A stretch of 64,000 nt of DNA, from positions 1,488,001 through 1,552,000 of the forward strand of contig CP012155.1 in NCBI GenBank assembly GCA_001602415.1. The letters are read 5' to 3'. Source of the stretch: Bacteroidetes bacterium UKL13-3. Its GTDB lineage: Bacteria; Bacteroidota; Bacteroidia; UKL13-3. Within the stretch, counting starts at the first letter, position 1. Each line of letters starts with the position of its first letter. Position numbers and translations under genes: made by a program. A model generated the notes under the pieces. It saw only the letters and a program-made list of their open reading frames with translations, made no database searches and was not told the origin of the DNA. Positions 26,235 through 37,983 of this stretch are shown here, piece by piece.

Positions 26235-26594
26235 TCATTTAGTTAGCGGTTTGTTCATGCCAACTTTAAACCATAGCGCGCCACATGCATAAGCAATACA
26301 GTCGAACCAATCGGCTGTAAACGATGAATTGAATAGGGGAAAGAGTAATTCAAAAACGATACAGCAGTATACCCAAACACACACGAGGGCGCGGTTTGAA
26401 TAAATAAAAGGGGTTGTTGGCGCAATCCATCTTTGCTGGAGTAGTAATCCCAGTCCCATTATTATTGGAATAAATAGCAAGTCATCTGCATAGGATTGAA
26501 AATAAGCGGGAAACGGAATAGCTGAAAGCTTTAGCAAATGGTAAACTATCCAAAGGCTGAGCGGAACATAAACGGATATTGGAAATAGGCTCAT
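26235..26594 (-). CDS. Small integral membrane protein, VanZ-like ('magnesium citrate secondary transporter' annotation group)
   Basis: 119 aa with three or four hydrophobic helices. The pattern YADDLLFIPIIMGLGLLLQQR ... VFELLFPLFNS ... TADWFDCIAYACGALWF resembles short Bacteroidota proteins often named magnesium citrate secondary transporters, and faintly VanZ. The name is not evidence of transport. It is the last gene of a three-gene operon whose members overlap by 4 bases (26591-26594). Confidence 0.65.
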   Translation of the reverse strand: MSLFPISVYVPLSLWIVYHLLKLSAIPFPAYFQSYADDLLFIPIIMGLGLLLQQRWIAPTTPFIYSNRALVCVWVYCCIVFELLFPLFNSSFTADWFDCIAYACGALWFKVGMNKPLTK

Positions 26595-26899
26595 CCAGGC
26601 AGAAAAAAGAGAATAAGCGTTACCAGTAAAATAAGGGCCGAAAGCAAAAATTCACCGGTATTGATAAGTTTTTCAAGCAACCAAAACCATTTGGAACGAG
26701 AGGATCGATTCAATTTAGTGTACGAAATCAACCCCGGGAAGGACTCCCATTTTTGAGGTAATTCCGAATGTTCTTGCCTAAAATGTTGATCCAAAATTTC
26801 GCCACAACTGCTACAAAAAGATTTTGTGCCATCAGTCCAGTTGGAGCAATGCTCGCATTTTTGCAATGATTTGGTTATTCGGTATTTCGTTTTGCTCAA
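26591..26899 (-). CDS. Zinc-ribbon protein with C-terminal membrane anchor
   Basis: 102 aa. The N-terminal half has a four-cysteine zinc ribbon (KCEHCSNW ... SFCSSCGEIL). The C-terminal ~20 residues form a transmembrane helix (FLLSALILLVTLILFF). Function not recognised. It overlaps both neighbours by 4 bases in the SRPBCC operon, so the three proteins are made together. Confidence 0.65.
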   Translation of the reverse strand: MSKTKYRITKSLQKCEHCSNWTDGTKSFCSSCGEILDQHFRQEHSELPQKWESFPGLISYTKLNRSSRSKWFWLLEKLINTGEFLLSALILLVTLILFFLPG

Positions 26900-27348
26900 G
26901 CAAATATCTTTTTTAGCTGTTCTTCGCGGTATTCAAAGATCTGCTTCACCTTTTTACCAACAAAAAGGGCGTTAATCAACGGTTCCAAAATCCATCCTGG
27001 AGACAAGAACTCCACACGATCCGTCATTTCGGTAATACCATTTACTTCTTTAAAACTATGGGTGTGATGCCAACGCACGTATGGTCCTTTAAGTTGCTGA
27101 TCTACAAATTGGTGGGGTGGATTCCATACACAAATTTCTGTTTTCCAGTTAAACGGTATACCATTTAGTTTAATACGGTAGTCAATCAAGGTTCCCGGTT
27201 TCATGTTAATTGGAAGATGTGTGGTAATCGTAAACTCCAACTCGGGAGGAGTGAGGAGGTTTAAATTCTCTGCTTTGCTAAAAAAATCAAATACTTCGCT
27301 CAGCGGACGTTTAATAATGGTGGTTGTTTCTAATATGTGTGGTTTCAT
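26896..27348 (-). CDS. SRPBCC (START-like) family protein
   Basis: 150 aa from the ATG at 27348. The opening HILETTTIIKRPLSEVFDFFSKAENLNLLTPP and the closing LINALFVGKKVKQIFEYREEQL are typical of the Bacteroidota SRPBCC proteins related to TIGR01777 N-termini and ligand-binding cyclase folds. It has a hydrophobic cavity-type fold and probably binds a lipid or aromatic ligand; no catalytic residues are obvious. It is the first gene of the operon facing the XRE regulator, and the 27450/27472 operator-like pair lies about 100 bp upstream. Confidence 0.8.
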   Translation of the reverse strand: MKPHILETTTIIKRPLSEVFDFFSKAENLNLLTPPELEFTITTHLPINMKPGTLIDYRIKLNGIPFNWKTEICVWNPPHQFVDQQLKGPYVRWHHTHSFKEVNGITEMTDRVEFLSPGWILEPLINALFVGKKVKQIFEYREEQLKKIFA

Positions 27349-27449
27349 TATCAATATATACACAAACTAATACCAATTAGTTTTGTGAAAGTATAGAAAG
27401 CCAAGAAAGCGACAGGTTGGCACTGTTTTATTGTCAATATTCAACTCAA

Positions 27450-27480
27450 ACAATTGTAAATCGCTTATTTTACAATTGTA
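27450..27480. promoter_or_regulatory. Paired palindromic operator-like sites, SRPBCC-operon side
   Basis: Two copies of ACAATTGTA (27450-27458 and 27472-27480), centres exactly 22 bp apart, about two helical turns. The core ACAATTGT is a perfect palindrome. The same pair with identical spacing recurs at 27629-27659 before the regulator gene. Confidence 0.6.
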
Positions 27481-27612
27481 TACTCAATAATTATAGGGGA
27501 CATTTGACGATATTTTTATAATATAACTTAATAAAAATCAATAAGTTATACAATCATTATTAAACAAAAGATAGAACAATATAATTTACAAAAGTAAACC
27601 CCATAATTAACA

Positions 27613-27643
27613 TTTGTTTTTAGTATAAACAATTGTAAATTTG
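27613..27643 (+). promoter_or_regulatory. Bacteroidota-type promoter of the XRE regulator
   Basis: TTTG (27613-27616), a 19-base spacer, then TAAATTTG (27636-27643) match the -33/-7 consensus exactly. The first ACAATTGTA of the downstream pair overlaps the start of the -7 box, and the second covers the expected transcription start, an arrangement expected of autorepression. Confidence 0.75.
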
Positions 27644-27659
27644 AATCAAAACAATTGTA
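27629..27659. promoter_or_regulatory. Paired palindromic operator-like sites, regulator side
   Basis: ACAATTGTA at 27629-27637 and 27651-27659, again 22 bp apart, embracing the -7 box of the regulator promoter. Confidence 0.65.
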
Positions 27660-27692
27660 AACAATGCTACTTTTAACTAATTATATATCAAT

Positions 27693-28145
27693 ATGATAGA
27701 TGAATTAAACAAACGTATCATAGAAGTGATGGTGCGCACAGAGCACAGTAAATCATCATTCGCAACAGCTTTGGGTGTTTCGTTGCCTTTAATCACACAT
27801 ATAACAACCGGTCGGAACAAGCCAGGGTTGGATATTATTCAAAAGGTTCTTACTCATTTTGAGCGTATTAGTCCCGATTGGCTGTTATTGGGTGTGGGCA
27901 ATATGTATCGGGAAGAAGCTGAAAGTCAAGATTTTTCACACCTTATTGAGCAAATTGAGACACTTGGTCGAGAAATTGAGTCAGTTAGAAGCGCACAATC
28001 ATCTGTAATACAATATCATAAAATGCTATTGGATGAAGTGAAACACCTCAATGAAATGGATCATTTACTCGAAAATAGCAGTGAGAAATTGAGCGAATTA
28101 ATGCGAAGGCTTCAAGCTATTCAGGTAGAGTTAAAATCTATATAA
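27693..28145 (+). CDS. XRE-family transcriptional regulator with C-terminal coiled coil
   Basis: 150 aa. The N-terminal HTH (residues ~8-65: SKSSFATALGVSLPLITHITTGRNKPGLDIIQKVL) is followed by the phrase ISPDWLLLGVGNMY, typical of Bacteroidota XRE regulators. A long coiled coil (~80-150, heptads rich in Glu/Leu) suggests dimerisation. By position it is the candidate ligand for the four ACAATTGTA sites, controlling itself and the divergent SRPBCC operon. This is inference from layout. Confidence 0.85.
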   Translation: MIDELNKRIIEVMVRTEHSKSSFATALGVSLPLITHITTGRNKPGLDIIQKVLTHFERISPDWLLLGVGNMYREEAESQDFSHLIEQIETLGREIESVRSAQSSVIQYHKMLLDEVKHLNEMDHLLENSSEKLSELMRRLQAIQVELKSI

Positions 28146-28759
28146 TTACTTAAGTTATTATATGTTAAATAATTGATTAATAAGTTAAATGATGTAAGTA
28201 TTAAAATCTTTAAAACTTCTTAAAGTCAATAAATCTGCTGTATTTTTGGGGTTCATTTATAGATATGTCAAAGAGGCAGACATAAAAACACCACCCTCAT
28301 TTGGGGCTTTGACCCTAAGCTCAATTAATAATAGAAGCCGAGTATATCGTTTTCTATTTTTTGCTTATTTCTTTAGGAATAGAGCACAATTAGCTCATCA
28401 GGCCAAATGGGTTGATGTGCTGTTACCCAAATGTTCAACTTGGCAAAATTTAATACTTCATTTACTGCTTCCAAGAGCAAATCAAACTGTGCTTGAGGAG
28501 GTTGGCTTACAATCCTCATAAAGCGGAGCAGCATGGTTAGCCTATGATTAAGCATGTTTGACCGGTTAAAGTTCCGACAGGTGAAGGATTCACAAACAAG
28601 GCGAGAAAGCTATGATGATTTTCGAATTGGTTAACATCACCAATCTAATTAAAGCCACAGCAAGGGTTTTAAGACGGTAGTATTAGGAAATGGTTCCTTT
28701 ATTGTTGGATAGAATGAGGATAAAGACTTTGGGATGATTCACTTGTTTATAATTAAAAA
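28146..28759. other. 614-bp stretch with no confident gene
   Basis: The stretch is AT-rich at first (28146-28245), then has higher-complexity sequence. Two short frames (plus 28246-28521, minus 28373-28555) have no recognisable homology, no signal and no promoter. The minus frame (MLNHRLTMLLRFMRIVSQPP...) could be a decayed gene fragment, but I cannot name it. Confidence 0.4.
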
Positions 28760-37918: not shown

Positions 37919-37983
37919 CTAACAATTGTAAATGAAGAAAAAATAGTGCAGAATTGCATCGATAGTAATATTTTCGATTAAGA

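Follow-up and report, generated by a model that had tools for sequence, protein, structure and literature searches.

The window is a 64,000-nt stretch of Bacteroidetes bacterium UKL13-3 (assembly GCA_001602415.1, contig CP012155.1, positions 1,488,001–1,552,000 of the forward strand), and the region studied covers window positions 26235–28145. Here an XRE-type regulator gene on the plus strand and a three-gene operon on the minus strand diverge from a 329-bp intergenic region of 23% GC, which lies between the XRE gene and the SRPBCC gene. The host belongs to a little-studied group of the Bacteroidota, a phylum with promoters unlike the E. coli ones and, to our knowledge, few known operators. 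The features are as follows, the putative operators being given without strand.

26235–26594, minus strand: third operon gene, a four-helix, probably membrane protein of 119 aa and unclassified family, conserved in 11 loci
26591–26899, minus strand: zinc-ribbon membrane protein of 102 aa with a TTG start, a CxxC...CxxC pattern and a C-terminal hydrophobic stretch, conserved in 10 loci
26896–27363, minus strand: SRPBCC-type protein, likely start ATG at 27348, a start conserved in orthologs
27450–27457: distal operator, ACAATTGT, 138 bp from operator 1
27472–27479: distal operator, ACAATTGT, 116 bp from operator 1
27588–27595: operator 1 of the regulator array, ACAAAAGT, 22 bp to operator 2, position kept in orthologs
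27610–27617: operator 2, ACATTTGT, including the −33 TTTG
27613–27643, plus strand: regulator promoter, TTTG-N19-TAAATTTG, an exact match to the Bacteroidota consensus
27629–27636: operator 3, ACAATTGT, its last base being the first base of the −7 box
27651–27658: operator 4, ACAATTGT, close to the expected transcription start
27693–28145, plus strand: XRE regulator of 150 aa, HTH at residues 4–66 and a long C-terminal helix at 82–149

The regulator and its operator array

The regulator scores 23.1 bits with the HTH_3 profile (PF01381), just above the cut-off of 23, and is thus a member of that family. Its AlphaFold2 model, built on a 32-sequence alignment, has a confident HTH (helices within residues 4–66) and a single helix at 82–149 with a pLDDT of 92.9. 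The pTM reaches just 0.50, in keeping with two parts that take no set orientation to each other. In helix 82–149, the conserved hydrophobic residues recur every 3.5 residues, as strongly as in none of 5,000 shuffles, and this periodicity is the mark of a coiled coil. The modelled architecture is a Cro/CI-type HTH joined to one 68-residue coiled-coil helix, consistent with the coiled-coil regulator of the original prediction.

The HTH fold matches 434 Cro, P22 c2 and P2 C, and also C.AhdI, C.BclI, DdrO and SinR. Searched by sequence against solved structures, the regulator gives weak matches only. Downstream of its gene, about 600 bp (28146–28759) hold no convincing gene and only short open frames on both strands (28246–28521 and 28373–28555), possibly a gene remnant.

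Six ACAWWWGT operators lie in the intergenic region, as three pairs each 22 bp apart. The perfect palindrome ACAATTGT occurs four times (27450, 27472, 27629 and 27651) with 22 bp within each pair, and the degenerate sites ACAAAAGT (27588) and ACATTTGT (27610) form a pair of the same spacing. The original prediction had described the four perfect copies as two pairs with 22 bp between centres; both pairs are real, but 27588/27610 was overlooked and the total is three. Four of the sites form the array 27588-22-27610-19-27629-22-27651 on the side of the regulator; the single pair 27450/27472 lies towards the operon.

In Markov-1 simulations of the 329-bp region at 23% GC, the mean is 0.28 sites; at least one 22-bp pair arises in 0.03% of the simulated regions and three pairs in none of 20,000. 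Genome-wide frequency had been put forward as a check on the paired motif, which proves rare: by pattern search across the 3.24-Mb genome, ACAWWWGT-N14-ACAWWWGT occurs at three places, every one in this intergenic region, and the reversed control pattern occurs 0 times forward and once reverse. Elsewhere in the 64 kb there is one exact copy of ACAATTGTA, at 37922. A search for RNA families in the region found none.

The Bacteroidota promoter consensus has a −33 box, matched here by TTTG at 27613–27616, and 19 bp further on TAAATTTG occupies 27636–27643. The −7 consensus in Bacteroidota is TAnnTTTG (PMC9723704). The exact consensus promoter and its overlap with one operator pair, both predicted earlier, are confirmed, operator 3 sharing the first base of the −7 box (27636). 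The array pairs 27588/27610 and 27629/27651, with 19 bp between them, together cover the regulator's own promoter, and the same embedding of the promoter in operators is seen at four loci (L011, L016, L023 and L024). Full operator occupancy should, we infer, exclude RNA polymerase.

Conservation of the array and the distal operator

Orthologs of the regulator (E ≤ 1e-20) are found in 38 of the 64 family genomes surveyed, UKL13-3 among them, and in 8 of 14 genera. Within 150 bp upstream, 33 of 34 ortholog genes carry at least three sites (mean 4.06), whereas the 185 other genes of the same loci have a mean of 0.038 and none has even two. The commonest spacing upstream of the orthologs is 22, followed by 19/20, with 41/42 as their sum. 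The layout 22-19/20-22 recurs among them, and a few orthologs deviate in spacing (L077, L080 and L093; L074). When nine divergent upstream regions are aligned, the operators stand out as conserved blocks and the surrounding DNA has diverged.

The array accompanies the regulator whether it lies beside an ABC-F ATPase, a NifU-like or an SRPBCC gene, as named by eye. Of 61 distinct paired sites in 58 genomes, 49 have a regulator gene at most 400 bp away, and two more are at a contig end where the regulator gene may be cut off. Hence the comparison strongly supports the XRE regulator as the likely binder of the array, in line with what had been predicted, since array and gene go together in 33 of 34 orthologs.

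Upstream of operator 1, at about 100–140 bp, most of the regulators have a further site, even in the absence of a nearby divergent gene; at five loci it is present with no SRPBCC gene near (L066, L075, L077, L082 and L095). The distances between the distal site and operator 1, taken one per clade, are 138, 98, 50, 117, 117, 96, 96, 107.5, 127, 107, 107 and 116 bp. At 10.5 bp per turn, they cluster in phase with an R of 0.76 (p = 2.4e-4; R of 0.91 without the single outlier; p = 0.007 on unique values), these p-values being optimistic as the clades were hand-assigned and the site rule was set after a first look. The independent clades are few. The control distance from operator 1 to the start codon gives an R of 0.33, and the secondary distal sites show a weaker phase trend (p = 0.04; 0.12 on unique values). 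The phasing suggests looping or same-face cooperativity from the distal operator.

The divergent operon as a probable local target

The operon genes overlap by 4 bases at 26896–26899 and 26591–26594, as had been noted from the sequence. The SRPBCC protein scores 22.9 bits with Polyketide_cyc (PF03364) against a cut-off of 23.4, nearly the whole domain being covered, and no solved relative was found for it by sequence. The zinc-ribbon protein gives weak zinc-ribbon matches only in the profile search. The third protein had been labelled VanZ-like, a label that family profiles do not support: it has no Pfam match in the profile search, the Pfam VanZ profile matches neither it nor nine relatives, and the fold search with it returned no solved fold. 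It is instead modelled as a small protein of four helices (pLDDT 89.6), to which VanZ could still be a remote fold relative.

Distant homologs of the SRPBCC protein have neighbours that look carotenoid-related by eye, a hydroxylase and a lycopene-cyclase-like gene, so its ligand may reasonably be guessed to be a lipid or isoprenoid. At loci L050, L051, L052 and L057, SRPBCC homologs occur with hydroxylase-like, lycopene-cyclase-like and isopentenyl isomerase-like genes.

The distal pair 27450/27472 lies 102–131 bp upstream of the SRPBCC ATG. No clear minus-strand promoter was found near 27450–27480, the best candidate at a sensible place having at least two mismatches. Near the SRPBCC start, nine loci (L069, L073, L078, L087, L089, L091, L092, L094 and L096) share a conserved block, approximately AATTGTTTT and then TGCCA, which matches neither an operator nor a standard promoter and may serve the operon as its own promoter or leader.

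Several loci keep the operon set next to the regulator; in three genomes (G006, G015 and G018) the conserved set lies apart from it. About 16 loci, from several genera, have the SRPBCC gene in divergent orientation to the regulator, and nearly all of them have a site in between. Where the SRPBCC gene lies apart (G001, G002, G006, G010, G011, G015 and G018), its 330 bp upstream contain no exact site and no 22-bp pair; all these seven genomes have the regulator, but not adjacent to the SRPBCC gene or operon. In the sister species, G001, the SRPBCC gene is directly followed by dnaX, without the other two operon genes.

This absence of sites suggests that the operon is controlled only locally and is no part of a fixed regulon, operators being present only where the operon adjoins the regulator. 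The predicted control of the operon thus stands in part. Operators do precede the operon here, and the extra operators would reach it as a neighbour in this genome, but it has none where it lies apart from the regulator, and what is conserved as the target is the promoter of the regulator itself.

Probable autorepression and the alternatives

We consider it highly probable that the XRE protein of 150 aa represses its own gene locally, by way of a conserved array bound cooperatively and strengthened by the distal sites. The best reading of the comparative data is an autoregulatory module first, with the operon secondary. XRE dimers would bind the palindrome TTWACAWWTGTWAA through the HTH. The spacings of 22, 19 and 22 bp are about two helical turns each and so put the operators nearly on one DNA face, a spacing suited to cooperative binding as originally predicted. 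The array would cover the −33 box, the −7 edge and the start region, and the promoter would be shut when the array is full. The C-terminal helix would dimerise the protein as a coiled coil and probably link neighbouring dimers for cooperative binding. The in-phase distal operator, here the pair 27450/27472, may strengthen the repression by looping or a continuous complex, and from its position before the SRPBCC ATG the operon would be co-regulated here as a neighbour.

The locus could instead be a dedicated divergent switch in which two equal operator pairs serve mainly to control the SRPBCC/zinc-ribbon/membrane operon. The two perfect operators before the operon and the many divergent loci with a site between speak for it, but the bare upstream regions in the seven genomes and the distal operators that persist with no SRPBCC gene nearby make it improbable. 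Activation by the regulator of its own promoter, or a switch from activation to repression with occupancy as in the C proteins of restriction-modification systems, is somewhat less probable still. Those C proteins have arrays of paired sites over the promoter, and the HTH has C.AhdI and C.BclI among its fold matches; yet the promoter here is already an exact consensus and the operators extend over the start and both promoter boxes (−33 and −7), not the upstream side alone.

Another protein such as a BlaI/MecI/CopY-type repressor may bind these TACAWWTGTA-like palindromes, and the CopY operator core TACANNTGTA, used as two copies in E. hirae, is very similar (PMC7253601). There it is bound by the winged-helix Penicillinase_R proteins, but this genome has no Penicillinase_R protein (PF03965) by a search that found one in 7 of 14 control genomes, and the sites travel with the XRE gene. 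Such a binder was rejected as very improbable. Chance, or an AT-rich promoter sequence resembling the palindrome, has the 77% AT of the region and the likeness of ACATTTG to the −7 box TAnnTTTG on its side. It is hardly credible, as the simulations never give three pairs, sites are all but absent from the other genes in these loci and the layout is conserved.

The putative autorepressor is closest to the Cro/CI-type phage repressors (434 Cro, P22 c2, P2 C and lambda CI). They are alike in the HTH fold, in the regularly spaced palindromic operators, some two turns apart, that lie over the promoter of the repressor gene, and in the possible looping to a distal operator. The UKL13-3 regulator differs by the shared palindrome and the 22-19-22 array, by a single long coiled-coil helix where those repressors have a globular dimerisation domain, and by its chromosomal locus with no phage genes seen adjacent. 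RstR (NF041951) is the best NCBIfam match, over the HTH, at 24.5 bits against a cut-off of 80, which leaves the regulator outside that family. DdrO and SinR are XRE repressors with helical C-terminal parts that share the XRE HTH, on which their fold matches rest (TM-score of about 0.38 by query), but they have no single helix of 68 residues.

More tentatively, the regulator may represent a Bacteroidota-wide XRE autorepressor family with the operator TTWACAWWTGTWAA, a portable self-limiting module in which coiled-coil-linked dimers would fill the 22-19-22 array, loop to a phased distal operator and control any divergent gene, here a lipid-binding/membrane operon. Cro/CI-like autorepression is known; in the open-access literature searched, we found no paper on the TTWACAWWTGTWAA operator in Bacteroidota and no description of the subfamily, the array geometry or the phased distal site.

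A regulator of no assigned role thereby gains a sharply defined predicted operator, a geometry kept in about 34 loci and a predicted mechanism. As the neighbours change, the array remains with the regulator, a pattern relevant to how target genes are acquired and lost by local regulators. If coiled-coil-linked cooperative repression is real, it would stand beside the globular dimer contacts of lambda CI as another solution.

A second ACAATTGT pair in the UKL13-3 genome, 23 bp apart at G000:C1:1751337–1751367 (locus L003, 1501–1531), lies within the inverted repeat ACAATTGTTGC-N9-GCAACAATTGT in a divergent intergenic region before a DEAD-box helicase gene. It was rejected as a further target, not being kept before that gene in six relatives.

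There are hints that the operator may be common to a much wider XRE family. Among distant homologs less than 45% identical, TTTACATTTGTAAA-type sites are seen too, for example three spaced 23/24 bp in L105, L106 and L111 and a further three spaced 23/21 bp in L100, to be taken with caution as ACATTTG resembles the −7 box. Together with L101 and L102, these distant Bacteroidota XRE homologs carry TTTACAWWTGTAAA-type sites 21–24 bp apart before their own genes.
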